NCBI GenBank assembly: GCA_021827805.1
Contig: JAKAUG010000170.1
Coordinates: 1 to 14,477 of the forward strand
From: Bacillota bacterium
Lineage (GTDB): Bacteria; Bacillota; Sulfobacillia; RBS10-35; JAJYVN01
Direction: 5' to 3'
DNA length: 14,477 nucleotides
The position numbers and the translations under genes were made by a program. Positions 1-14,477 of the stretch are shown here, piece after piece. The notes under the pieces were generated by a model. That model saw only the letters and a program-made list of their open reading frames with translations. It was not told the origin of the DNA and made no database searches. The stretch's first letter is position 1, and each line of letters starts with the position of its first letter.

Positions 1-162
1 GATCTCTTCAATCTGCAGATATCCGGCCCTCTTCTTGATGACCGCGGCGACGCCACGGAAACCGTACACGTAGCGGGGGTCGTGCCCTTCATCGTCCTCA
101 AGGCGTTAGCCTACGATGAGCGGTTTGAAGAGAAGGACGCGTACGACCTGCTCGACGTACGT
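1..162 (+). pseudogene. 3' remnant of an AbiEii-like nucleotidyltransferase gene
   Basis: Frame 1 is open from the window edge. It reads VHVAGVVPFIVLKALAYDER and then FEEKDAYDLL, which resembles the C-terminal segment (VLKALA...KDAYDL) of nucleotidyltransferase-like proteins of the AbiEii/AbiGii toxin superfamily. In that family the KDAYDL helix is followed by more helical sequence. Here the resemblance stops near base 160, where the frame runs into the antisense of a TnpB remnant, so the C-terminus has been replaced. The 5' part lies outside the window, so I cannot tell whether the upstream protein is otherwise intact. The match is from memory of the family motif only, and the segment is short. 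The end coordinate is approximate. This is probably a disrupted gene rather than a working toxin. Confidence 0.45.
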
Positions 163-176
163 GGCGGCCGCGAACA

Positions 177-545
177 CAGGTGCTCACCAATCCAGGTCCT
201 GACCGCCCTTCGGCCTGTGGCGTCCACACTGCGCAGCCGAATGCTGTACCGCTGCAGTGCCGCGTCGGAGAACGCGTGCTGCTCCCGCGCCGCTCGAAAG
301 TGGGCCTGTCGCGCCTCCCGCGCCTCCCGCTGCTGCCGCGGCGTCGCCTGCGCCCACACCGACCGTCGTACCAAGCCGAGATGCCGCAGCGCCTTGCCCA
401 GGCAGGCGTTGTAGACCTGCCGCGCCGCCCCCAGTTTGACTGCAAGTTTCCTTCCCCGTGTCCACCCAGTCCGCAAGGGTAGCTCGCACGTGAAGGTGGG
501 CGTCTGGTTCTCGATGTATTGCCTGGTGACCGCAAGCGGCGCACC
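177..545 (-). pseudogene. N-terminal remnant of an IS200/IS605-type TnpB
   Basis: The minus frame reads QTPTFTCELPL, then KLGAARQVYNACLGKALRHL, then AFSDAALQRYS and WIGEHL. This is the N-terminal pattern of IS605-type OrfB/TnpB RNA-guided nuclease-like proteins, including the GAARQVYNACLGEAL helix and a WIGEHLD segment about 100 residues in. Full-length TnpB is usually about 350-500 residues, whereas this frame loses resemblance after WIGEHL at base 177 and stops at 111. The RuvC-like catalytic residues and the zinc finger are therefore missing. The frame is open from 545, just after a TGA at 546-548. No ATG precedes the conserved start; only a TTG at 476 lies inside it. It is a dead fragment with no flanking hairpin ends recognised, and its junction with the AbiEii-like remnant marks an old insertion or deletion. 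Confidence 0.65.
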
Positions 546-867: not shown

Positions 868-2088
868 ATGTCGCGTGGGCCCAACTTCATACTGGTGCTG
901 ATGGATGACATGGGGTACGGGGACATGGGCTGCTACGGGCCGACCCCCATCTGCACGCCGCACATGGATGAAATCGCCGCGCGGGGCATGCGCTTCACGC
1001 AGATGTACTCGCTGGCGCCGGTCTGCACCCCCTCGCGCTGCGGCCTGCTCACGGGGCGCTATGCGCAGCGCGTCGGCCTCCCTCGTGTGCTGTTTCCAAA
1101 GGACACCAGCGGGCTGGGCGCGTCCGAACGAACGGTGGCGGACTGCCTGAGGCCGCTCGGATATGCCACGTGTGCCATCGGCAAGTGGCACCTGGGCTGC
1201 CGACCGGAACACCATCCCTGCCGCCACGGCTTCGATCGCTTCTTCGGCCTGCCGTACAGCAACGATATGCAGCCGCTCCCGCTCTACCGCGACGAAGAGG
1301 TTCTCGAAACGGCGGTCGATCAGGCCAGCCTCACGCGCCGTTACACCGACTTTGCCATCGATTTCGTGCGGGACCATCGCGACGGGCCCTTCTTTCTCTA
1401 TCTTGCCCACACCATGCCGCACATCCCGCTGCATGTGGAGCCGGGGTTCCGCGGCCGGTCCGCGGCGGGCACTTACGGCGACACGATCGAGTGCATCGAC
1501 GCGCATCTGGGACGGCTCCTGGGGGAATTGCGCGCGCTGGGGCTTGAGGACAACACCCTGATCATGGTCACCTCCGATAACGGACCGTGGTTCGAGGGGA
1601 GCACGGGAGGCCTGCGCGGCCGGAAATTCGAGGTCTACGAGGGCGGGGTGCGCTCGCCGTTTGTTGCGCAATGGCCTGCGGTGATCGCTCCGGGCGCCGT
1701 GTGCGAGGAACCATCGTGCTTTCTGGACCTGCTGCCCACGCTGGTCGGACTCGCCGGGGGAACCGCGCCGCAAGATCGCGTCATCGACGGCCGGGACATC
1801 GGGCCGCTCATGCGCGGCCAGGGGGCTCCCACCCGCGATGCGCTCTACTTCTACACGGACAATAGCCTGAACGCGGTGCGGGAAGGCCACTGGAAGTTGC
1901 ACGTGGCGCGTGGCCCTGATGGCAAGAATCGGGCACAGATGCCCCAGCTCTTCAACCTGGGGATCGACCCCTCCGAGTCATACAATCTCGCGGATCGCCA
2001 TTCCGAGGTGGTGCATCGTCTCCGCGCGCTGATGGATGCCTTCGATGCCGCCCTCTCGGAAGACCGTTCCGAAGCGCTTGGACCCTGA
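868..2088 (+). CDS. Cys-type sulfatase (arylsulfatase family)
   Basis: This predicted 406-residue enzyme hydrolyses a sulfate ester; its substrate is not evident. It opens with PNFILVLMDDMGYGDMGCYG, where D13 and D14 are expected calcium ligands. The sulfatase signature CTPSR starts at C53, the residue converted to formylglycine by a maturase that is not in this window, and is followed by LTGRYAQR. Next come GKWHLG (K106, H108), a His at 181 in AHTMPHIPL, and TSDNGP with D237 and N238. GRKFEVYEGG has K253, the usual substrate-side lysine. All the core residues are therefore present. At about 400 residues it is slightly compact for the family. No signal peptide or lipobox is visible, so a cytoplasmic location is likely, whereas many sulfatases are exported. 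It is alone on its strand with over 300 bases upstream, so it is probably monocistronic. The family call is firm but the substrate is unknown. Confidence 0.93.
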   Translation: MSRGPNFILVLMDDMGYGDMGCYGPTPICTPHMDEIAARGMRFTQMYSLAPVCTPSRCGLLTGRYAQRVGLPRVLFPKDTSGLGASERTVADCLRPLGYATCAIGKWHLGCRPEHHPCRHGFDRFFGLPYSNDMQPLPLYRDEEVLETAVDQASLTRRYTDFAIDFVRDHRDGPFFLYLAHTMPHIPLHVEPGFRGRSAAGTYGDTIECIDAHLGRLLGELRALGLEDNTLIMVTSDNGPWFEGSTGGLRGRKFEVYEGGVRSPFVAQWPAVIAPGAVCEEPSCFLDLLPTLVGLAGGTAPQDRVIDGRDIGPLMRGQGAPTRDALYFYTDNSLNAVREGHWKLHVARGPDGKNRAQMPQLFNLGIDPSESYNLADRHSEVVHRLRALMDAFDAALSEDRSEALGP

Positions 2089-2876: not shown

Positions 2877-4160
2877 TCACCACGCCTGCCGCAGGTCCCC
2901 CAGCAGCCGATCCACCAGGCGCTCCTGGTAGGCGGGCACGCCAGCCGCGGCGATCGCGCGTCCCGTGGCCGCAAGGGGCCCCTCCAGGGCCGCCAGCCAT
3001 TCCGCGTCCCGGGCCGGCACCACCGTTCCCCCCTCCATCCCACGGGCCGCCTCGGCGTAGTCGGCGGGCCCCATGCGCCACAACCGCAGATCCCCGTATC
3101 GCCGGCAGAGGTCGCTCGCGATGACCAGGCCGTTGCGGTCGAAGTCCCCCCCATACCACAGGGTGTGGCCGGCGGTCGCGAGGGCGTCGAGCAGCCGGAT
3201 GGCGGCGGCGCTGAGGAACCCGCTGGTGCACACGAGCACGGGACCGCCGGCCCCGACGGACCGCACCAGGTGCGCGAACACCTGCGGGTTCTCCACCACA
3301 AAGGCGCATCGCCCGCCGGCAGGTGTGAAGGCCAGGTCCCGCACGGCGGCCAGGGGCAGCGGCCAGCCGCCGCCCGCGGAGGCCATCGCCTCCAGGACGG
3401 GGTGCCGCGCGCCCTGCAGGTGCGCGGCCAGCACTGTGGACGAGACGTCGTCGACGTCGATCCCGGCCCGTGCCAGCACGAACGACCACGCCTCGGCGTC
3501 CGCCAGACCCCCGGGTGGGGCCCCCCCGAACTCGCGCAGCGCCGCATACAGCAATGCGCCCGCCCCACGGCCGCGATCGAAGGCGTGCGGGTCGCCCGTG
3601 ATGCCGGCAGCAAAGACGGCCAGCAGGCCTCCGCCGTCGGAGGCCAATGCGTCCACCGCCCGCGCCACAGACAACACGTCCCGCTCCGCGGCCGCCGCGT
3701 CCTGGTGGTACGCTCGCCTGTACCAGCGGCCGCAGGGACCGTCGGCGGTCAGCCCGTCCACCAGCCGACGCGCGGCCGCACCGACCCCCACAGACGCCCC
3801 GATGCGCCCGATCTGCCGGGTCCACGCCGCCTCCGCCTGCTCGCGTCGCGCGCGGTGGGTCACGACGGGCCCCCCGTCTGCCTCCAGCACCTCCAAGAGC
3901 CCCACCGCGAACCCGCTCCGGCGCAGAGCCGCATCCAGATCCGCCACCGGGATCCGTACCCCGTCGCTCTCGGAGCCCCTGCGCAGCCGCTGCCAGCCGA
4001 CGAGGTCGGCCAGGGCCGCGCGCTCCTCGCGGCCCAACGCGACGACGGCCACCCCCACGACCGCGTCGTTGGCCTCGATCCGCCGCCGCGCCTCCGCAAG
4101 AAGCGCGCCGAGCCCGGATGCCCGCAACCGCCGCGCCACCTCGCGCGCCTCGGCCCTCAC
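2877..4160 (-). CDS. jetD: JetD: Toprim-type nuclease subunit of a type II Wadjet system (DUF2399)
   Basis: This 427-residue protein is the predicted DNA-cleaving subunit. The C-terminal half carries a Toprim fold of the topoisomerase VI A-like type. FVVENPQVF has the metal-binding Glu at 290, GPVLVCTSGFLSAAAIRLLD follows at 307-325, and GGDFDRNGL has the Asp-x-Asp pair D339/D341. WRMGPADY follows at 361-368. This pattern matches the DUF2399 (TIGR02679) family, and the N-terminal 280 residues fit the accompanying DUF3323-like arm region. The length is normal. The GTG start at 4160 is chosen because it overlaps the jetC stop as GTGA, an arrangement typical of translational coupling; no good Shine-Dalgarno is visible. 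The frame stays open upstream to 4754, but that part is antiparallel noise inside jetC. In characterised Wadjet systems JetD cuts circular DNA held by the loop-extruding complex. All catalytic acidic residues are present. Confidence 0.9.
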   Translation of the reverse strand: MRAEAREVARRLRASGLGALLAEARRRIEANDAVVGVAVVALGREERAALADLVGWQRLRRGSESDGVRIPVADLDAALRRSGFAVGLLEVLEADGGPVVTHRARREQAEAAWTRQIGRIGASVGVGAAARRLVDGLTADGPCGRWYRRAYHQDAAAAERDVLSVARAVDALASDGGGLLAVFAAGITGDPHAFDRGRGAGALLYAALREFGGAPPGGLADAEAWSFVLARAGIDVDDVSSTVLAAHLQGARHPVLEAMASAGGGWPLPLAAVRDLAFTPAGGRCAFVVENPQVFAHLVRSVGAGGPVLVCTSGFLSAAAIRLLDALATAGHTLWYGGDFDRNGLVIASDLCRRYGDLRLWRMGPADYAEAARGMEGGTVVPARDAEWLAALEGPLAATGRAIAAAGVPAYQERLVDRLLGDLRQAW

Positions 4161-7100
4161 GGCTCCGGCCCCGCCGCCTGGGCGGCGTCCGCCTCGTCGT
4201 CCTCCGGCCCTTCGGCCAGCGGCTCCCGCGCTCGCGCGCCGTCCCACAGCACGGGGAAGGCCATGTGCACGTTGCCCCGCAGCGTCAGCCCGTAGGCCAT
4301 CGCCGCGGACAGCCCCGGCCCGTAGGGTAGCTCCTCCGGGCACGTGATGATCCAGGACAGCCCCAGGTCCCCGAGGAAGCGCAGGTAGTTCGCCTGGTTG
4401 TTGGGGTCGAAGCCCGCAAAGGCCTCGTCGAGCCCCACCAGCGCGGGCGCGTCCGGCCTGCCCGCGGCCCCGTACCGCGCCGCCACCCCGGCCAGCACGG
4501 GCACGGCCAGCGCCCAGGCCTTGGCCGACGTGGACCAGCGCCCGAACCCGCGGCTGCGCACCTCCACCGCCTGCGCGTTCCCCGCCGGCTGGCTCATCAG
4601 GCGGAACTCGTACCAACGGCGGTAGTCGAGGCCTCGGCGGATGGCCTCGTAGTACCCGAGAGCCTCCCCCGCGGCGGCCGCGTCCGACCGCACCCGCTCC
4701 ACCTCGCCACGGATCTGGCGCAGGAGCATCTCCCGCCGCTCCTGACTCAGCCACTCCCCGCCCTGGTCCAGTTCCTCCAGTGCGCGCCCCACCTCAGCCC
4801 CCGGCACGACCGCCGAGTCGCAGGTCGAGAGCCGCAGCGACAGGCGCTCCCCGCCCGACAGCCGCAGCCCCCGCAGCCGCTCGTTGGTGCGGCGGGTGAA
4901 GGACCGCGCGCGGCTGATCAGTTGCCGCAGCTCGTCGAGGACGCCGTGGTAGATGATCCGCTCATACAGCTCCCGCTCCTCCGCGGCGATCAGCTGCCGA
5001 TCCCGTTCCAGCTCGGCCTCCAGCCGCCTGCCGAGTTCCGCCGCCGCGAGTTCCTCCCGCTCGCGGTGGAAGCTCACCGTGTCCCAGGTCGCTGAAGCCG
5101 TGGGACGTACCTCGCCGAGCACGTCCATGTGCCGATGGACCGAGTTCTGGAGTTCGGCCTTCGCCTGTTGGGCGGCCTGGTCCAGCGCATTGGCCTCTCC
5201 AGGCTGGATGGGCCTCGGCAGCTTTGGCAGGGCCGCCACCGGCCCTTCGCGTTCCAGGGCCTCCGCGTGCTCTGTGAGGGACTCGTGGAGCGTGAGACGC
5301 TGCCTGAGGCGCTGGAGTCTGTCGGCGGCCGCGGCGCGCAGTTCGGCCTCCTGCGGAGCGAGTGCCTGCATGGTCGCGCGGTGGCTGGCCGCCTCCTCGC
5401 CCAAGTCCCTGGCCTGATCAGCCTCCGTCCTCCCGTCCGCCTCCAGCCGCTGTCGTTCCCCCTCCAGCCGCCCGATCTCGTCCCGCAGCCGGGCCACGTC
5501 CGGATCCTTCAGGCGTTCCTCCAGAGCCGTCACCTGGGCGCGGGCGGCCGCCACGGCGCGCTCCGCCGCGGCGACGTTCGGCCGCATCTCCTCGGCATGC
5601 TGGGCATCCCGCCCCCGCTGTTCGGACCGCGCCCGGTAGGCTCGTACAGCATCGAGGAGATCCTCGGGCCCGACCTCGCCGAGGCGCCGCACCACGCGCC
5701 CCAGGTCGTCCGCCCGCCCGCCGAGCCCCTCGGCGTCCAGCGGCCTGGCGTCAGGCAGGAGCGTCAGCGCCGCCTCGTACTCCCGGTGCGCCTGGTCGTG
5801 TGCGGCCCGCGCGGCGTCGTGTGCCGGCCGCGCCGCCGCCACCCTGCGTGCAGCCTCGTCCACCGCCCTCGCGGCAGCGTCCCGCGCCTGCAGGGACGAG
5901 AACAGGGGTTGCCAGGGCAGGGATCGCGCCGCCTCGACCTCGGCGTCCAGAGCGGAAGCCGCGCGTTCCGCGGCGGCCGCGCGGTCCAAGGCTCCGCCGC
6001 GGCGCGCCGCCGCCGCGAGCCGCGCGCGGCCGAGGGCCTCGAGACGGGCGCGCCCCGCGGCCTCGCGCCGCGCCTCTCCGACCACGCCGACAGCGTCCCT
6101 GAGCCAGGGCGCGACCTGACCGGCCGCCTGGCCGTGCCGCCAGTGCCCGTCAGGGGCGATCCACAAGTCGCCGGATCCCTCGCCCCAGCCCACGGCGGCC
6201 AAGATCTCGGTCACCACCGCCGGAGCCCCCGGTTCCGGCTCAAGGATGTCCAGCAGGCTGGCCCCGGCGGCGGGCCTCGCCGCCGGCACGGCCCAGGCAT
6301 CCCCGGCTCCCGGGTCCAGCAGCAGGTCGAAGAGCCCCGCCTCCAGCCCCGCCGCCTCCACGGCCGCGGCCGTCCCGCTGTCGACTCCCGCCCGGAAGCG
6401 CACGCAGCGGAACAGCGGCTGCACTCCGTCGGCTCCCGCCCGCGCGGTTCCGCGCAGGGCACCCCTGTCCGGCAGGACGCCACGGGTCTGGACCTCGGTG
6501 ATCTTCTCCTCCAACGACTCCTCCAGGACGGCCGCGCGCGCCGCATCCTCGAGCGCCTGGCGGCGCGTCTCGTCGAGCCGCGCCCGCCGCCCTTCCGCCG
6601 CCTGCCGCACGGGGCCCACGAGCCCCTCCGTCCCGTCCTCCGGCACCGCGTCCAGGACCGCGACCGCCATGGTCATCGGGCCGAGGGCCTCGGGCTCGAG
6701 CGCCAGCGCTCCGCTCGCGACGCGCCACGCCTCCAGGGCCTCCAGCAACCCCTCGCGACGCCGTCCCACTTCCTCCGACGCCGCCGACTCAGCGTCCACC
6801 GCCGCGGCATGCGCGCCGCGCAGCTCGGCCATGCGCTCCCGCTGCCGTTTGGCCTCTGCTTCCGCGGCATCCCGCGTCCGGCGGCGCCCCGCCGCGTCGC
6901 GGTATGCCCGCTCGAGCGCCTGCGCCTCGGCCGTCAGGCCGGCACCCGGCCAGACGCCGGACAGCGCAGCCTCCTCCTCCGTGACACCCAGCCGCTCAAG
7001 CGCCTGGACCGCCGTCTGCAGGGTCCGCACGCCGGCCCCCCAGCCCGCGTTTCCGGCGATGGTGGCCAGGTCCCGACCCACCGCGGCCACCCGGTCGCGC

Positions 7101-8308
7101 CTCCGGCGGAACAGCTCCTGGTCGCGCTGCAGGGCCGCGTCGTCCTCCCGCAGATCGTCCTGCTTCAGGGCCAGGAGGCGCGCCAGCTGCAGGGCGTGGG
7201 CCTCAGCCTTGCGCAGGACCTCCTGCACCTCGGCGACCTGGTGCGGCAGGTCCGCGTCCGGCCGCTCCCGGTAGGCCTCCAGGGCGGCCGCGATCTCCGC
7301 CTGCCGGGTCGCCCGGCGGTCCGCTCGCCCCCGCAGGCCGGCCAGCTGCTCCTCCGCCGCGGCCAACCCGGCCCGCGCCCTCTGCAGCCGCGCCGCCATG
7401 TTGCCCAGGCTCCCGGCCGCCTCCTGGTAGAGGTGCGCGGCGTCCTGCACCAGCACCTCCGCCAGTGTCCGCAGCCGCGCGTCCACCTCGGCGACGGCCT
7501 CCGCCCGCCGCGTGGCGGAGCGCAGGTTCCGCTGGTAGCGCTCGATGTTCTCCACGACCTCGGCCACGCGGTCGAGGCGCTCCGCCGCCACGCCGGGCAG
7601 AGAGTCCCGCAGCAGCTGGCAGACATGGTCCGGGCCCGCCTGCTCGCCGAGCTTGGGCCTCCGCGCCTGCAGCAGCATGGAGATCAGGGCCTGGTAGTCG
7701 TCGTCCTCCATGGCGAAGAGGTGGGCGTTCACCTGCCGCCGGTACTCCGCACGCTCCTCGGTCACGACGCACGGCGGTTGGAGAAGCTTCTCGATGTCCC
7801 GCGGTCCCAGGCAGTTGCCGTGCTCCTCGGCCCGCACGTCCCAGTCGCGACCCAGCCGCCGGTCGGGCACCACAAATCCCCACCACTCCCGCACCAGGCG
7901 CGGGTGGTTGCGCGCGGCGGCGACCCCCATGCCGATCGTCAGGTACTGGCCCGTCCCGCCATGACGGAGCTCAAGGGCGAAGTAGCCGGTGCGGGCCGTG
8001 TAGGCAAAGGCGTCCGGCTGCTCGGGATCGGCGTCGTCGTCGCCCAGCAGGTACCAGTGGAGGTGCCGGTCGCGACTCATGGCGGGGTCGAGGCGGTTGC
8101 CGGAGGTCTCGCCGTCCAGGAGTGTGGGAAGGCAGAGGCTGAGCAGAGTGGACTTACCGCTGCCGTTCTGCCCCGTGAGGGCGAGACGGCCGTGGGCGAA
8201 GCCGAGTTCGTGGTCGTGCCAGTGCCACCAGTCGCGGAAGATCAACCGCTCTGGCATCCAGCCCGCCGGGCCGCCGGAGATCCCCTGGCGGATGCGCTCG
8301 AGGCCCAT
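4157..8308 (-). CDS. jetC: JetC: SMC-like ATPase of a type II Wadjet system
   Basis: This 1383-residue SMC/MukB-like motor is the predicted DNA-loop-extruding ATPase. The head contains Walker A GQNGSGKS at 46-53, the ABC signature LSGGE at 1150-1154 and Walker B GLDEAF with D1294/E1295, followed by the D-loop FAGFD. Two long Ala/Arg/Glu/Leu-rich coiled coils, roughly 240-625 and 740-1130, flank a globular hinge-like segment at about 630-735. That segment includes LWIAPDGHWRHGQ. The arrangement matches the TIGR02680 family, and the length is typical. The ATG at 8308 lies 20 bases after the jetB stop but has no clear ribosome binding site. An in-frame TTG at 8341, overlapping jetB by 13 bases, has GGAGGG 6 bases upstream and is a serious alternative start, adding 11 residues. 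SbcC is a less likely identity given the neighbours and the absence of an SbcD. Confidence 0.92.
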   Translation of the reverse strand: MGLERIRQGISGGPAGWMPERLIFRDWWHWHDHELGFAHGRLALTGQNGSGKSTLLSLCLPTLLDGETSGNRLDPAMSRDRHLHWYLLGDDDADPEQPDAFAYTARTGYFALELRHGGTGQYLTIGMGVAAARNHPRLVREWWGFVVPDRRLGRDWDVRAEEHGNCLGPRDIEKLLQPPCVVTEERAEYRRQVNAHLFAMEDDDYQALISMLLQARRPKLGEQAGPDHVCQLLRDSLPGVAAERLDRVAEVVENIERYQRNLRSATRRAEAVAEVDARLRTLAEVLVQDAAHLYQEAAGSLGNMAARLQRARAGLAAAEEQLAGLRGRADRRATRQAEIAAALEAYRERPDADLPHQVAEVQEVLRKAEAHALQLARLLALKQDDLREDDAALQRDQELFRRRRDRVAAVGRDLATIAGNAGWGAGVRTLQTAVQALERLGVTEEEAALSGVWPGAGLTAEAQALERAYRDAAGRRRTRDAAEAEAKRQRERMAELRGAHAAAVDAESAASEEVGRRREGLLEALEAWRVASGALALEPEALGPMTMAVAVLDAVPEDGTEGLVGPVRQAAEGRRARLDETRRQALEDAARAAVLEESLEEKITEVQTRGVLPDRGALRGTARAGADGVQPLFRCVRFRAGVDSGTAAAVEAAGLEAGLFDLLLDPGAGDAWAVPAARPAAGASLLDILEPEPGAPAVVTEILAAVGWGEGSGDLWIAPDGHWRHGQAAGQVAPWLRDAVGVVGEARREAAGRARLEALGRARLAAAARRGGALDRAAAAERAASALDAEVEAARSLPWQPLFSSLQARDAAARAVDEAARRVAAARPAHDAARAAHDQAHREYEAALTLLPDARPLDAEGLGGRADDLGRVVRRLGEVGPEDLLDAVRAYRARSEQRGRDAQHAEEMRPNVAAAERAVAAARAQVTALEERLKDPDVARLRDEIGRLEGERQRLEADGRTEADQARDLGEEAASHRATMQALAPQEAELRAAAADRLQRLRQRLTLHESLTEHAEALEREGPVAALPKLPRPIQPGEANALDQAAQQAKAELQNSVHRHMDVLGEVRPTASATWDTVSFHREREELAAAELGRRLEAELERDRQLIAAEERELYERIIYHGVLDELRQLISRARSFTRRTNERLRGLRLSGGERLSLRLSTCDSAVVPGAEVGRALEELDQGGEWLSQERREMLLRQIRGEVERVRSDAAAAGEALGYYEAIRRGLDYRRWYEFRLMSQPAGNAQAVEVRSRGFGRWSTSAKAWALAVPVLAGVAARYGAAGRPDAPALVGLDEAFAGFDPNNQANYLRFLGDLGLSWIITCPEELPYGPGLSAAMAYGLTLRGNVHMAFPVLWDGARAREPLAEGPEDDEADAAQAAGPEP

Positions 8309-8328
8309 CTCGTGTTGCGTCCAGAGGT

Positions 8329-9630
8329 TCAGCCCGTCCAACCGGTGCCCTCCGTTCCGTCGAACAGGCTCCGCGCAGCGGCGGCGGGCGCCCGGGACAC
8401 CGCGTCGTCGTCCGCGTCGGCCCGCGGCGTGTCCACGTACGCCCCGCACAACTGGCCCGCCGGTGGCAGCAGCCAGCACCGCCCCAGGGCGTCCGGGCCG
8501 CGCAGGAACCCCATCTGCCGCATCTGGCGCCCGAGGCGTTCCCACACCTGCTCGGTGCCCACCTGCTCGCCGAGTTCGGTCCCCCAGTTGCGCCGGTGGC
8601 GGCGGTAGAGATCCATAAACAGGTCGTGGAGCGTGCCGTCGCCCACGGCCACCGTGCCGTCCGGCGCCGCGGCCAGCCGTCCGGCCGCCATGGCCTCGCG
8701 CACCGCCGTCAGGAGCAGCAGCACCGGATGGAAGACGTAGCGGACGTGCCGGTCTGCGGCGCCGTCGGCCCCCTCCGGTAGGAGGTCCAACAGCACGGCG
8801 GCGCCCGCCCCGCGCGCGGCGGCCGTGCGCCAGATGCGGGCATGGGCGCCCGCGAGCTCCAGGCCCCAGCCGAGGCCGTCTTCCAGGTCCCGACGGACAC
8901 CCTCCTCGGCCGAGGCGAGGGCGTCAAAGGCCTCCGGGTCGTCGCCGCGCCAGAGGGCGGGCCCCAGCAGCAGGGCGCGCCAGGCGCGCGCAGCGGGGGG
9001 CGCCATCTCTCCCGTGCGGGGGAGGACCGGGCCGTCGGCGGGGGGTGCGGCCAGCACGTCGAGCCCCGCGGGGTCGAACGCCGCCAGCAGGCGCGGCGCA
9101 TCCTCCGCGAACTCATACAGCACCTCGACGGCCTCACCGACCTCCGCCTCGCCGCTCGCCCAGCGCTCCACCTGCCCGTCGCGGTAGACGAGGGCGCCGA
9201 GGTCCACGAGGAGTTGCAGCGTGCGCACCAGGGCCTCGCGGTGCGGCCGCTCCCCCAGGCGGAAGGCGGGCCCAGCCGCCCGGGCGACCTCTCCCGCCAG
9301 CTCGGAGAGCACGAACCAGCGCTTGGGGTCGGCGGCGCGCGACTCCGCGTACCACAGCACCCAGCACAGACAGGCGTAGTCGAGCGGCGCGCGCAGGCGC
9401 GGCAGGCCGCGTTCCGCCAGGGCCTGGGCGGGCAGGCGCTCCAGTCGGTACGTGCCCTCGCCGCCGAGGAGCCGCCATCCCGGCCGCTGCTGGAACCACG
9501 CCCTCAGATACTCCTCATGCAGGTAGATGCGGCGGTAGGCCTCGGGCTGGGACGCCCGCTCGACCACGGGGCGGTCGAGGAGGTCCATGACTGCTATGCG
9601 CCGATCCTCCGCGCCGTTGCGGTCAGGCAT
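8329..9630 (-). CDS. jetB: JetB: KITE-like subunit of a type II Wadjet system (DUF2398)
   Basis: This 433-residue protein matches the pattern of DUF2398 (TIGR02678). Near the N-terminus it has YLHEEYLRAWFQQRPGWRLL, then an acidic LDYACLCWVLWYAES helix, then RTLQLLVDLGALVYRDG, a probable winged-helix segment at about 140-170. By analogy with MukE and type I JetB it should be the KITE-like dimer that binds the kleisin JetA; that role is inferred. The ATG at 9630 is preferred over a GTG at 9639, because AGAGGTG sits six bases before the ATG and the GTG lies within it. The first 8 bases overlap the end of jetA. No signal peptide or membrane segment is present, and the length is normal for the family. 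Confidence 0.87.
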   Translation of the reverse strand: MPDRNGAEDRRIAVMDLLDRPVVERASQPEAYRRIYLHEEYLRAWFQQRPGWRLLGGEGTYRLERLPAQALAERGLPRLRAPLDYACLCWVLWYAESRAADPKRWFVLSELAGEVARAAGPAFRLGERPHREALVRTLQLLVDLGALVYRDGQVERWASGEAEVGEAVEVLYEFAEDAPRLLAAFDPAGLDVLAAPPADGPVLPRTGEMAPPAARAWRALLLGPALWRGDDPEAFDALASAEEGVRRDLEDGLGWGLELAGAHARIWRTAAARGAGAAVLLDLLPEGADGAADRHVRYVFHPVLLLLTAVREAMAAGRLAAAPDGTVAVGDGTLHDLFMDLYRRHRRNWGTELGEQVGTEQVWERLGRQMRQMGFLRGPDALGRCWLLPPAGQLCGAYVDTPRADADDDAVSRAPAAAARSLFDGTEGTGWTG

Positions 9631-11227
9631 GGGCGGCACCTCTGGCGTCGCGCCCGCGATCGAGACGCAGGCGGAAGCGGGGCAGGATCAGCTCCCCGTC
9701 GGGTGCGGCCAGCGCGCCCAGCTCGCGCTGGGTCGGAGTCTCCACGATTACGGACCAGTCGCGGTAGCCGACGGCCGTTCTGCCGTCCTGCGCCAGGGCG
9801 CGGTAGAGCAGGCGCAGGAGGCGCTGGCGGTCCGCGCCGGCGTCCAGGCGCAGCCCGTCGAATGCGAGGCGCCCGTCGGGGCCGAACAGCCGGGCAAGGG
9901 CGAGGGCCGACCGCCGCCGCTCCTCCCGCTCCTCAAGCATCAGCGCAAGTTCCTCGACCGTGCGGTCCGCGGTTGCCTGGTCCGGCAGGCGCGGGCGGCG
10001 GCCCCGGCGGACGGCCTGCAGTGGCACCACCACGGGCGGACCCACCCAGGGACTGCCGTCGCGCGGTTCGGGCGCGACGCCCTTCCAGTGCAGCGGCAGC
10101 GTCAACCCGAAGGCCACCTGGGCGAGGCGCTCGGCGGCAGGCAGATCTGAACAGGAGACGAAGCGCCGCGCCAACTCGAGCAGGAGCCCGGCGCGCACGG
10201 TGCCCCCGCTGTTCTGCTCGCTGAGCCGGCGGGCGTGGCGTGTGATCTCGGCCACCCAGCCCTGGGCGCGGTCGAGGAGCACGTCCACATCGCCGCCGTG
10301 GGCGAAGTAGGCGTAGAGCGCCTCCACCTCTCGGCGCGCCTCCTCGCGCTCGGCGGCCTCGTCGGGGGTGGTGCCGTCAGCTCGCACGTGCCGGGCCCCC
10401 TCCCGCCCGATCACCTGCGCGATCGCATCCGCGGCCGGGCGGACCGTCAGCAGCAGGTGGCGCGCGTACTCGCGACGGTCGAACAGACGATGGGCGTACC
10501 CGTAGAGGTAGCGCGTCAGAACGTCGCGGTAGCCAAGGAACCCGAGGTAGTCGAGCGCCTCGCGGGGGCGGTGCCGCGGCAGGTCCCCCAGGTAGTCCTC
10601 CACACCCCGGGCGAAGGCGTCAAAGGCAGCATGGGCCGCACGCCAGCGCTCGAACGTCTGGGGCTCGTCTTCTGGTACGCCGGGCACGTGCCCCTCGGCA
10701 ACCCACGTCGCGAGCTCCTCGAGACGTCGCACCAACTGCTCAAGGGCCGTGGGGTTGAGCGTGGCGGCGCCGGATTCCGCATCCAGGCGCCGCCGCAGGT
10801 CCTCGAACTGCAGGGCCACGCGCTCGGCCTGGTATGTGCGCGGGCGGTTACGCAGTTCGAGCAGCGTCGCGGGGCGGCTCTGTTCGGGGAGCACGCGTAC
10901 CAGGCGCCACTCCTGGAGTTGGTCCATGTGGCGGCGGCAGGACGCCTCATCGTATTCCGGGAAGGTTTCGCGCACCCGCGCCACGATTTCATCGGAACGG
11001 ACGTAGTGCGCGTGCTCGCGGTGGCGCTCGTGGAAGTGGCGCATGATCAGCCGATAGTAGGGGCCATCGGGGTGGCCGACCAGGTAGTTGGCCTCCGGCA
11101 TGTCGGCGAGGTAGTGCCGTGGGCGCAGTGGGGCGGCCGGCGGCGTCAGATCGGACGCGGCTCCCAGGACGGGCACCCCCAGAGAGAGGAGTCGCAGGCG
11201 GGCGCAGTGCGCCGCCTTGTCCACCAT
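9623..11227 (-). CDS. jetA: JetA: kleisin-like subunit of a type II Wadjet system (DUF2397)
   Basis: This 534-residue protein is the first gene of the operon. The family match (DUF2397, TIGR02677) rests on the N-terminal YLVGHPDGPYYRLIMRHFHE, followed by a winged-helix-like stretch to about residue 115 (RRHMDQLQEWRLVRVLPEQ). Further support is YLGFLGYRDVLTRYLYGYAH near the middle and a C-terminal domain rich in Arg and Leu with WHKG-like content. By analogy with MukF and type I JetA it should bridge the JetC heads and bind JetB; this is inferred. The start is uncertain. The ATG at 11227 is chosen because codon use still looks coding down to there. The ATG at 11101 begins just before the conserved block (492 residues). 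The ATG at 11356, preceded by AAGGGGG, would add sequence that does not look like protein. No start has a strong ribosome binding site. Confidence 0.85.
   Translation of the reverse strand: MVDKAAHCARLRLLSLGVPVLGAASDLTPPAAPLRPRHYLADMPEANYLVGHPDGPYYRLIMRHFHERHREHAHYVRSDEIVARVRETFPEYDEASCRRHMDQLQEWRLVRVLPEQSRPATLLELRNRPRTYQAERVALQFEDLRRRLDAESGAATLNPTALEQLVRRLEELATWVAEGHVPGVPEDEPQTFERWRAAHAAFDAFARGVEDYLGDLPRHRPREALDYLGFLGYRDVLTRYLYGYAHRLFDRREYARHLLLTVRPAADAIAQVIGREGARHVRADGTTPDEAAEREEARREVEALYAYFAHGGDVDVLLDRAQGWVAEITRHARRLSEQNSGGTVRAGLLLELARRFVSCSDLPAAERLAQVAFGLTLPLHWKGVAPEPRDGSPWVGPPVVVPLQAVRRGRRPRLPDQATADRTVEELALMLEEREERRRSALALARLFGPDGRLAFDGLRLDAGADRQRLLRLLYRALAQDGRTAVGYRDWSVIVETPTQRELGALAAPDGELILPRFRLRLDRGRDARGAAHA
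9637..9643 (-). promoter_or_regulatory. Ribosome binding site deciding the jetB start
   Basis: AGAGGTG on the minus strand ends six bases before the jetB ATG at 9630 and lies within the last codons of jetA. It supports internal initiation of jetB by coupling and argues against the GTG at 9639. Confidence 0.55.
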
Positions 11228-11259
11228 GGTACCACTGTGGCCCTGGGGGTGCCGGGATG

Positions 11260-11308
11260 AGGGTCGGCGGTCAGACGAGACGTGCGCGTCTCCGCCCACC
11301 CCGACCCT
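11260..11308. promoter_or_regulatory. Compound palindrome just upstream of jetA
   Basis: The outer arms AGGGTCGG (11260-11267) and CCGACCCT (11301-11308) are perfect complements. Centred inside is GAGACG-TGCG-CGTCTC (11277-11292), also perfect. A further GGCGG (11266-11270) can pair with CCGCC (11292-11296). The 49-base element ends 33 bases before the chosen jetA ATG. It could be an operator for a dimeric regulator or a structured 5' leader limiting expression of the defence operon. If jetA instead starts at 11356, it would be internal to the gene. Confidence 0.5.
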
Positions 11309-11637
11309 GGGCCAGCCCAGCGGTTTCTGGCCGCTGTCGCAGTCCCGGCGTGCCATGGGGGCCCCCTTGATGGGCCTCTGCTGACCGTTGGATGCCGGCG
11401 ATGACTCAGCCCGCTCGCTCGTCGACCCGGGAGTCCCGCGGCGGATCACCTGCACGTGGCGCGGGTGGTGGTGTGGGTTGAGGAATCCGCCCACGCTGAT
11501 CGGCTGCGGGCACGGTTGGCCCAGGCGCCGGACCGGCGCGCGGACCCGGTGAAGGCGGGATCGGTGACCGTCACGTTGAGGTGGCCGAGGAGGCCGGTCT
11601 GGTGAGGGCAAGGCCCGTGAGCCAGGGCGACGGTCGT

Positions 11638-11661
11638 GGGCGCAAGGGCGCAAGGGCGCAA
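11638..11661. repeat. Triplicated 8-base tandem repeat
   Basis: GGGCGCAA is repeated three times without interruption and followed by GG. The unit is not a multiple of three, so a frame crossing it would shift if copies were gained or lost. It is probably a slippage tract in non-coding sequence. Confidence 0.7.
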
Positions 11662-12084
11662 GGTGTATGAGCTCACCGCCTCCGAGCGCGGCGTGTGCCT
11701 GCCTGGTTTGGCGACGTGACGCGGCCCGGACCGGCCGCGGCGGAGGAGCTCCACATCAAGCTCGTGGCGGCCGCCAGTGGCAGCCTGGCCGACCCGGTGC
11801 GCGTCACCGAGGCGCCGCGGCAGAACTCCCCTCCGGTAGGCGCGAGTCGCAGCGTGCGGCGCGCCGAGCCCGAAGGCTCGGTCACGGCCATCCGCATGAC
11901 GAGGCAGGCGGCCCACGAGAAGTCGCGCGCGGGTGGTCAGGGGGACTCCGCGGTCGGCGCGGGCTGGGCGAGCACTCGCGGCCCCAGGGGATACGGTGAC
12001 GCCACCTTCCGGGTCCTCCCCACCGACCTCCCGTTGTCGGCGTCCGTCACAGGGCGCGGTGGCCTGAGCCGAGCACGAGAGCGG

Positions 12085-12120
12085 CCGGGGCCGCCGAGCG
12101 CATCGCCGCGGCGGCCCCGG
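12085..12120 (-). terminator. Distal terminator-like hairpin after the glycosidase-like gene
   Basis: Perfect 12-base arms CCGGGGCCGCCG (12085-12096) and CGGCGGCCCCGG (12109-12120) enclose a 12-base loop. It begins about 80 bases beyond the stop of the glycosidase-like gene. The stem is almost entirely G:C and lacks a T-run. It would separate this gene from the jetABCD operon, which is transcribed in the same direction. Confidence 0.55.
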
Positions 12121-12128
12121 GCAGACCC

Positions 12129-12161
12129 CCGGAGGCCCCTGCGAGCCGCAGCTGCCTCCGG
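12129..12161 (-). terminator. Proximal terminator-like hairpin after the glycosidase-like gene
   Basis: The outer arms CCGGAGGC (12129-12136) and GCCTCCGG (12154-12161) enclose inner arms CTGCG (12139-12143) and CGCAG (12147-12151) around an AGC loop. This makes 13 base pairs with one small internal loop. It starts 40 bases after the stop codon at 12202 and lies directly before a second strong hairpin, so the two probably act as a tandem terminator. Confidence 0.6.
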
Positions 12162-12201
12162 CTTGGTCCAGGTGCCGTGCCACCGGCGCCCGCCCCGTGC
12201 G

Positions 12202-14298
12202 TCAGTGGGGAGTGCTTCCGCCGAAGACCACGACCACAACCTGTTCGGGGTCCACGTTTACCTCCGCCGGCAGTTGGACCGTCCGCGGAGCCGCCCCGGG
12301 CGTGAACACGGTGACCTCGCCGTTCGTGCGTCCGCCGATTTCGATGATGCGGGCCCGCTTGCTGACCTCTTCCCAGTGGTTGAGCACCACTGCAGTGGTC
12401 GCCCCGTCCGCGGACACGAACCGTCCGTCCAGAACGCCATCGTGTTCGATGCGGGTGCCGGGCACAGACGGCAACTGCATGCGGCCGTCCCAGAGCACAT
12501 GCCTCAGGGAATGCCGCAACTCCAGGACGGCGGCCGTGTATCGAGCCGTCACAGGCATGTCCTCGGATGTGCCGTGCAGGCACCGTCCCTCCAGGTTGAC
12601 GATGTGACCATACCGCAGGCAGTTGTTGACCATGTTGAAGTCGCTCGGGCCCGTGACACAGCAGGACTGGCGGATCTCTGGAAAGGTGTGGGCGAAGTCC
12701 GGGATGTGCCACTGGCCGAAGAAGCGCGAGTAGGTGGCGCTCATGAACGGCACCATCCGGTCCCAGTGCGACTCGCTGGCGATGTCGAAGTCGGGGACGA
12801 TGGTGCGTGCCTGTGCGGCAAAGCGCTCCAGGACCGCGACGATCGCCTCCTGGTGGGATACCCCGCGGCGAGCGGCCAGATCGGGATGGTAGTCCACCTC
12901 CGTGGGGTTGACCAGTTTGTCGACCTGGGTGCCCGGGGCTCCGAGCCGCGCGGTCTGCAGCAGTTGGTCCATCACGATCTCGGCGAAGCGGGGGTGCGCC
13001 GGGTTGGCTGGGACCATGCGCGGGACGGCCTCCCCCTGCAGGCCCAGGATCGTCCCGTACTCCCATCCCGCGCCATTGTGCCGGTTGCCGAAAGGGTCCT
13101 GGACGGCGTAGCGGTATAGTTCCTCCGCCCACCAGGAGGTCTCCAGGTTGACCACCTGCAGGTTGGAGAAGAGCATCACCTGCACGCCGAGATCCCGGCA
13201 CGCGGCGATGGCGGCGCGCAGTTCGTCCGCCGTTCCGAGACGTGGGTCGGGGGTGTACTGCGGATAGCCGCGGTCGATCCCGCCGATGTGCCAGCCGTCG
13301 ATCTGTAGAACACCGATACCGTGCTCTCGCGCGGTCCGCGCCATCCTGGGCAGATCGGCGAAGCGGTACCCGATGCTGTCCTCCGGGTAACTGATGATCG
13401 TCGACTGCCAGGCGTCGGCGGTATGCAGCCAGCCATCCGTCCGCGGCGCCGGCAGCGTTCGGTTATACCAGGCTCGGAAGCGGTCGGCACCCACGGACCA
13501 ATCGCCGTCGTGGAAGGCGAGCACCACGTCGCCGTTGTCAAAGGTGGAGCCGGGCTGAGCAAAGGAAAAGGTGGACCAGCCAAGGCTCGCCCCCACAGGT
13601 TCGCCGATCCGCTCAGCGCGTGGCCACACCTGACCGCGGGAGCCATAGTTGGTTCCAGGGGTGATCTCGGCGACCATGGCGGCGCGCCTCGGTTCGCTGC
13701 GGTGCACCCCGAAGTAGATGCCGGCCGCGATCCTGCGGTTGTACAGGTCGATCCAGGGCATGGACATCGAGCCGGGGTATGAGGTGGCCCACACAGGGTC
13801 GGCGGGGCCGAGATACGTGCCGGGGAACTGGCGGTAAAAGAGCCACTCCTGGCCCATGCCGCGGTTGTCCGGCCAGTGGAGCCGCCAGTCGTCCGCCTCC
13901 TCCGGTCGGAGCAGCCCTCCGATGATGGGTCCCCGCAGTTCCTCGACGGTGAACGCGCTCCGATTTTCGAGCACCCAGTGGAAGATGAGCTCAGGCCCGG
14001 AGACGGTCACATCCAGGGTGACCCCGATGTCGAAGTGACCCTGAGTGCTCTCCAGGCCCTGCCAGCTCAGACGCGCCCGGGTGCCGTCGGAGTTCACCTC
14101 ACGGTACGTCAGCCGCTGCTCATGGCCGCGGATGAAGTGCGCCCGCAGGTGGGGCAGGGGTACCAGGAGCGAGAAGTTGCGGGCCAACCGCCGCTCGCGG
14201 ACCAGTTCCACGCCTTGGCGCCGACTGCCGAGGCCGAGGATGCACCCGTACTGCTCATCCAGTTCGACCTTTGCGTCGGTGCCACCAATCTCGATCAT
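12202..14298 (-). CDS. Glycoside-hydrolase-like protein (DUF6259 / GH36-like)
   Basis: This 698-residue predicted cytoplasmic carbohydrate-active enzyme has an N-terminal beta-sandwich-like part (about 1-290), a central TIM-barrel-like part and a C-terminal beta domain (about 600-698). Barrel markers are ADAWQSTIISYPED (D295, W297), VLQIDGWHIGGIDRGYPQYT (D334, W336), VMLFSNLQVVNL near 375, VDKLVNPTEVDYHP (D460) and DFDIASESHWDRM (E509). This resembles alpha-galactosidase-like barrels (clan GH-D and relatives), and I would place it in the DUF6259 group. D460 or D334 as nucleophile and E509 as acid are guesses. The ATG at 14298 is chosen because the conserved sequence begins there. AAGGAGGGA near 14322-14330 is too far upstream to serve it, and the closer AGAG is weak. 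No signal peptide is seen. It is not in an operon within the window, and its substrate is unknown. Confidence 0.75.
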   Translation of the reverse strand: MIEIGGTDAKVELDEQYGCILGLGSRRQGVELVRERRLARNFSLLVPLPHLRAHFIRGHEQRLTYREVNSDGTRARLSWQGLESTQGHFDIGVTLDVTVSGPELIFHWVLENRSAFTVEELRGPIIGGLLRPEEADDWRLHWPDNRGMGQEWLFYRQFPGTYLGPADPVWATSYPGSMSMPWIDLYNRRIAAGIYFGVHRSEPRRAAMVAEITPGTNYGSRGQVWPRAERIGEPVGASLGWSTFSFAQPGSTFDNGDVVLAFHDGDWSVGADRFRAWYNRTLPAPRTDGWLHTADAWQSTIISYPEDSIGYRFADLPRMARTAREHGIGVLQIDGWHIGGIDRGYPQYTPDPRLGTADELRAAIAACRDLGVQVMLFSNLQVVNLETSWWAEELYRYAVQDPFGNRHNGAGWEYGTILGLQGEAVPRMVPANPAHPRFAEIVMDQLLQTARLGAPGTQVDKLVNPTEVDYHPDLAARRGVSHQEAIVAVLERFAAQARTIVPDFDIASESHWDRMVPFMSATYSRFFGQWHIPDFAHTFPEIRQSCCVTGPSDFNMVNNCLRYGHIVNLEGRCLHGTSEDMPVTARYTAAVLELRHSLRHVLWDGRMQLPSVPGTRIEHDGVLDGRFVSADGATTAVVLNHWEEVSKRARIIEIGGRTNGEVTVFTPGAAPRTVQLPAEVNVDPEQVVVVVFGGSTPH

Positions 14299-14477
14299 CT
14301 CTATGCGGCGCGGCTGCCGCTCCCTCCTTCGTGGGCACGATCGAACATCTGATTCGTGCCCGAAGCCCAAAGGCCTGTGCGTCCTTGGTCGGAGGGTTCC
14401 GCTCCGGCGAGGATGCGGCGGTGTCCGCCGGGGCTCCCGTGTTGGGCCCCGGGTCGTTGGAGAACCGATCCAGCTTG
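14299..14477. other. Upstream region of the glycosidase-like gene
   Basis: This non-coding stretch to the window edge should contain the promoter of the minus-strand gene. Besides the operator-like repeat it has a small perfect hairpin, CGGCGG-TGT-CCGCCG, at 14416-14430, which could be the end of a preceding transcription unit. No clear sigma-factor hexamers are seen. Confidence 0.4.
14333..14361. promoter_or_regulatory. Operator-like inverted repeat upstream of the glycosidase-like gene
   Basis: GGGCACGA (14333-14340) and TCGTGCCC (14354-14361) are perfect 8-base arms separated by 13 bases. The repeat ends 35 bases before the ATG at 14298. Position and size suit a dimeric sugar-responsive regulator, but no regulator gene is in the window. 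The spacing does not match a classic LacI-type operator with a central CG. Confidence 0.45.

Follow-up and report, generated by a model that had tools for sequence, protein, structure and literature searches.

The operon described here lies on contig JAKAUG010000170.1 (14,477 nucleotides) of a Bacillota genome (GCA_021827805.1), and its closest described counterparts are the Wadjet (JetABCD) systems: the type II complex of Neobacillus vireti (nvJET; 9qe0/9qe1), the type I systems of Escherichia coli GF4-3 and Pseudomonas aeruginosa PA14 together with MksBEFG of Corynebacterium glutamicum, and EptABCD of Mycobacterium smegmatis, which we take to be of type II. Loss of the JetABCD-homologous operon EptABCD raises the efficiency of plasmid electroporation (PMC12287153), and the type I systems serve the same functional roles as those considered below (PMC10586767). 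PMC12647877 gives the type I assembly as (JetC2JetB2JetA1)2 and that of nvJET as (JetC2JetB1JetA1)2; the JetA2B4C2 assembly named in an earlier note on this DNA, made from the sequence alone, fits neither. The same note regarded type II systems as less characterized than type I. They may still be the less studied of the two; since then, however, a structure (9qe0/9qe1) and, according to PMC12647877, a reconstitution of a type II complex have become available. The window, i.e. the entire contig, belongs to a fragmented genome (2.47 Mb in 502 contigs, 82% complete, 2.8% contamination). Its four-gene operon is almost certainly a complete type II Wadjet anti-plasmid system.

Gene layout and family assignment

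The operon consists of four adjacent genes on one strand, jetA-jetB-jetC-jetD (Table 1). The open reading frame (ORF) check returned the coordinates given in the earlier note, and the junctions described there are exact in the sequence: an 8-base overlap of jetA and jetB (9623-9630), a 20-base gap between jetB and jetC (8309-8328), and a GTGA overlap (4157-4160), in which the GTG start of jetD lies over the stop of jetC. An alternative GTG start at 9639, three codons upstream, would extend JetB to 436 amino acids (aa). The G+C content is 75% in the operon and 68-69% in the flanks, and the third-position G+C of all four genes (0.87-0.91) is consistent with genuine coding sequence.

All four families of a type II Wadjet system were matched in the canonical order, as the earlier note had proposed, and the best PADLOC models are JetA2, JetB2, JetC2 and JetD2. 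JetA was identified by NCBIfam TIGR02677 (351.7 bits, cut-off 165.85, E = 6.5e-105) and Pfam PF09660 (DUF2397; 266.9 bits), JetB by TIGR02678 (258.6 bits, cut-off 124.65, E = 9.7e-77) and PF09661 (DUF2398), and JetD by TIGR02679 (297.2 bits, cut-off 196, E = 1.8e-88), PF11796 (DUF3323) and PF09664 (DUF2399), while JetC matches TIGR02680 (E = 2e-117) and PF13558 (SbcC-type Walker B; 57.4 bits). The window proteins score far lower on the type I models, with 22.1 bits or less for JetB1 (JetB2: 426.8 bits) and 48.6 bits at best for JetC1 (JetC2: 515.4 bits). Searches of the PDB with the window proteins matched one solved type II complex, that of N. vireti, to which JetA (9qe0_E, E=1.6e-17), JetB (9qe0_D, E=9.9e-15) and JetC (9qe0_A, phmmer E=8.3e-56) are related by sequence; it is nevertheless distant from the window, as the best stretch of JetC covers residues 15-340 only. 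By these scores JetC, an SMC ATPase, resembles the JetC of type II more than that of type I, and more than MukB or Rad50.

The homologue search for JetB returned 32 among the matches listed. The sequence LLDR near the N-terminus of JetB was considered as a counterpart of the 'IFDR'-like JetD-binding motif of type I and dropped; since the letters at this site vary among relatives (LLEQ, LLNR and LLGQ in several of them), no JetD-binding motif is claimed.

Catalytic motifs and predicted folds

The Walker A, signature and Walker B motifs of JetC and the Toprim acidic residues of JetD, which the earlier note had reported as present, were all found (Table 1). The model of the JetC hinge, a monomer, fits the 9qe0 hinge far better than the other chains compared, and on this modeling evidence the hinge is of the N. 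vireti type, although only 16% of its residues are identical. The nvJET hinge has been described as lacking a central channel, a feature that only a dimer would show; acidic residues outnumber basic ones in 12/12 of the hinge rows counted (12 of 35), which is little informative without the dimer.

JetD combines the DUF3323 and DUF2399 regions, and its predicted model resembles type I JetD (7til, 8b7f) and topoisomerase VI-A. Ahead of the Toprim domain, residues H192, D195, D237 and S240 are likewise invariant in 44/44 type II JetD homologues. One relative of JetD (P0045, 632 aa) carries an N-terminal extension of ~200 residues rich in Pro and Ala.

Table 1. Features of the 14,477-nucleotide window
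Feature	Position	Strand	Remarks
jetA (type II; DUF2397/TIGR02677), kleisin-like subunit	9623..11227	-	534 aa, ATG start
jetB (type II; DUF2398/TIGR02678), KITE-like subunit	8329..9630	-	433 aa from ATG
jetC (type II; TIGR02680-like SMC ATPase)	4157..8308	-	1383 aa, ATG start
JetC Walker A GQNGSGKST, residues 46-54	8147..8173	-	from sequence; aligned with relatives
JetC hinge and adjoining coiled coil, residues 580-800	5909..6571	-	
JetC ABC signature LSGGE, residues 1150-1154	4847..4861	-	canonical form
JetC Walker B and D-loop, LVGLDEAFAGFD	4406..4441	-	Walker B LVGLDE at residues 1290-1295
jetD (type II; DUF3323 + DUF2399, Toprim nuclease)	2877..4160	-	427 aa, GTG start
JetD E290, Toprim glutamate in invariant ENP	3291..3293	-	invariant in 44/44 aligned homologues
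JetD D339-F340-D341, Toprim DxD	3138..3146	-	D339 and D341 invariant in 44/44 homologues
Sulfatase, ordinary operon neighbor	868-2088	+	PF00884, 197.2 bits
DUF6259 protein	12202-14370	-	PF19773, 39.8 bits
Frame without a full gene, like the N-terminus of IS605-type TnpB/OrfB	111-545	-	PF12323, E 0.18, under cut-off

The ABC signature and the JetC lineage

The signature of the window JetC has the canonical form, which few of the type II JetC proteins examined share. The counts refer to the best 120 of 177 JetC homologues listed (8000 candidates were scored) and are not a census. The pattern [LF]SGG[EQ] occurs in 4/30 of the closest homologues, one of which is the window's own record, and in 0/90 of the others; 15/30 of the closest have LSNGE or LSSGE, and 41/90 of the more distant ones TSTGM or TSSGL. 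Among 62 named loci, three rows of which seem misaligned, SGG[EQ] was found in 0/62 and TSSGL in 44/62. A narrow literature search found no paper on the ABC signature motif in Wadjet.

In a tree of 51 C-terminal regions of JetC, rooted at the midpoint only, the window protein groups with four metagenomic proteins (support 100/98) within a clade of 22 rows (100/100), which includes Desulfocucumis palustris and Bacillota proteins and stands apart from the type II JetC proteins of Lachnospiraceae, Alicyclobacillaceae and actinobacteria. Judging from this tree, the window JetC is a member of a divergent, well-supported type II sub-clade.

Within the taxonomic family of the window, 5/6 genomes contain a TIGR02680-type JetC above 200 bits. 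Only one of these loci (L044, genome G003) resembles that of the window, with 73.6% identity in JetA, 75.4% in JetB and 72.3% in the first 480 residues of JetC, where its contig stops. Genomes G001 and G004 are 29-39% identical to the window and G002 28-29% (segments of A, B and C); G001 and G004 share 62% in JetB and 43% in JetC, and G002 is below 31% to all. G003 with the window, G001 with G004, and G002 are mutually unlike and thus represent three type II lineages in one family, which points to horizontal exchange, as is usual for defense genes.

Proposed mechanism and alternative interpretations

By analogy with the characterized relatives, JetA (kleisin), JetB (KITE) and JetC (SMC ATPase) would form a motor, probably of two joined (C2 B1 A1) units like the N. 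vireti type II complex, which would load onto DNA and extrude it with ATP. On a small circle the DNA would be exhausted and the motor would stall, whereupon the dimeric Toprim nuclease JetD would cut the stalled circle sequence-independently, with loss of the plasmid as the result. How the complex assembles, extrudes DNA, senses size and cleaves, and what it does in vivo, is predicted from those relatives.

Several observations weigh against the assignment as a complete type II Wadjet system. The earlier note had looked to the profiles TIGR02677-TIGR02680; JetA, JetB and JetD exceed the cut-offs of theirs, but JetC, with 393.7 bits, remains under the 462.85 bits curated for TIGR02680 (a hypothetical equivalog), and we therefore file it as a type II JetC rather than as a TIGR02680 equivalog. 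Two relatives, G036 (382 bits) and G169 (458.6 bits), likewise fall under this cut-off. JetD used as a single sequence matched no solved PDB chain, and among PDB sequences its profile had 33 matches at E 10 or lower, the best of which (E 0.043) is unrelated, so that it is the predicted fold that ties JetD to its type I counterpart; the Foldseek TM-scores of the model with JetD chains are low (0.25-0.41), and its VIA root-mean-square deviations are large (7.8 Å for 8b7f and 13.1 Å for 7til). No other defense gene was recognized in the window, with 0 PADLOC matches in 6 flank ORFs. Finally, as the L044 contig ends inside jetC, the selection estimates given below refer to jetA, jetB and the N-terminal 480 residues of JetC.

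An alternative, which we regard as improbable, is that the complex uses the same extrude-and-cut chemistry mainly against non-plasmid targets, for instance phages or circular intermediates of another kind. No tested member is known this close to the window, the tree sets the JetC sub-clade apart from many of the type II sequences, and the canonical signature motif is unusual. However, the window holds no hint of another target, and the known mechanism senses the size and shape of a circle and not its sequence, according to PMC10586767 and PMC12647877.

It is less probable still that the locus is a decayed type II Wadjet whose products no longer work. The stretches of ~0.8 and 1 kb without a recognized gene that flank the operon, the possible piece of a decayed transposase nearby and the absence of a well-placed ribosome-binding site for jetA (by eye) would agree with decay. 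Against it, all four frames are full-length, the ATPase motifs of JetC and the catalytic motifs of JetD are complete, and jetB has a ribosome-binding-site-like AGAGGTG six bases before its ATG (by eye). Moreover, comparison of jetA, jetB and the 480-residue part of jetC with L044 gave nonsynonymous divergence (dN) of 0.20, 0.17 and 0.22 and synonymous divergence (dS) of 0.84, 0.74 and 0.71, respectively, i.e. dN/dS of 0.23-0.31, which indicates that purifying selection acts on jetA, on jetB and, over its first third, on jetC. An origin as a MukBEF chromosome organizer or an SbcCD/Rad50 repair complex, which the earlier note had named as what would overturn its reading, has next to no probability. 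JetC does carry PF13558, a Walker B domain of the SbcC/RAD50 kind, and has weak matches to models of Rad50 (22.7 bits) and of SMC (21 and 16.6 bits), but such an origin was rejected on the profile scores, TIGR02680 reaching 393.7 bits.

Occurrence and gene order among relatives

TIGR02680-type JetC genes are not rare among relatives. The genome of the window has one match; among 61 genomes (this one and 60 relatives), matches with an E of 1e-3 or better were found in 13, of which nine have more than 200 bits and the remaining four are weak (18.6-41.6 bits), and in a sample of the phylum 128/398 genomes match, 58/398 over the cut-off. Scanning the contigs of relatives with JetC alone yielded no relative, whereas the scan with the JetD alignment did; the taxonomy of 80 loci from the latter is 77 Bacillota, 2 Chloroflexi and 1 'bacterium'. 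A tblastn search of JetC against 72,556 plasmid records returned 18 records; in none did the match extend over 80% of the query, and identity was below 60% throughout.

Gene order was analyzed in 100 loci (L038-L137) picked for a matching JetC or JetD, with at least two contigs counted twice (L041/L059 and L046/L062). The exact order A-B-C-D is found in 72/100, in all 72 on one strand and in 71/72 with gaps between frames below 300 nucleotides. Partial operons make up 22/100 (10 with CD, 6 with D, 3 with BCD, and 3 with A, B and C only) and loci with extra or split fragments 6/100; none of the 100 contradicts the order A-B-C-D. In L047 (G152:C1:870000-889900, 7388-12274) jetC is broken into two ORFs, with one TGA inside the match, and in L089 (Lacrimispora xylanisolvens, CP070896.1) the jet genes are in pieces (AAABBCCCCCD), perhaps through decay of the locus or sequencing frameshifts.

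Flanking DNA

The operon is flanked by stretches without a recognized gene at 11228-12200 (~1 kb) and 2089-2876 (~0.8 kb). Beyond them lie the sulfatase and the DUF6259 protein, which may be a glycoside hydrolase, and the short TnpB/OrfB-like frame, by its sequence maybe a decayed transposase (Table 1). Apart from the sulfatase and the DUF6259 protein, Pfam searches of 9 flank ORFs gave only matches under the cut-offs (best E 0.014), and PHROG had no match in 5 flank ORFs. A fifth operon gene or a defense island was considered and rejected, as the flank ORFs lack PADLOC and PHROG matches. The window outside the operon has no blastn match (E 1e-5) in the 100 related loci, which include L044, and no RNA feature was reported in the window by ARAGORN or at Rfam gathering scores.

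Implications

The operon leaves the picture of how Wadjet works unchanged, and it adds an intact, divergent member to the type II group, for which one solved complex was matched in the PDB. The three unlike type II lineages in one taxonomic family illustrate the turnover that is usual for defense genes. On a bolder and rather unlikely reading, the window would represent a type II sub-lineage, here mainly of uncultured Bacillota, in which a hinge of the nvJET type is paired with a signature that is canonical or nearly so (LSGGE, LSNGE, LSSGE). If the rate or processivity of the ATPase depends on the signature, systems of this sub-lineage would outpace or outreach the studied type II complex in extrusion and act on larger circles, and they would merit a profile and a subtype of their own. 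The presence of an N. vireti-like hinge and a canonical signature in one protein makes the window JetC a reasonable natural reference for working out which of the parts of JetC govern extrusion.
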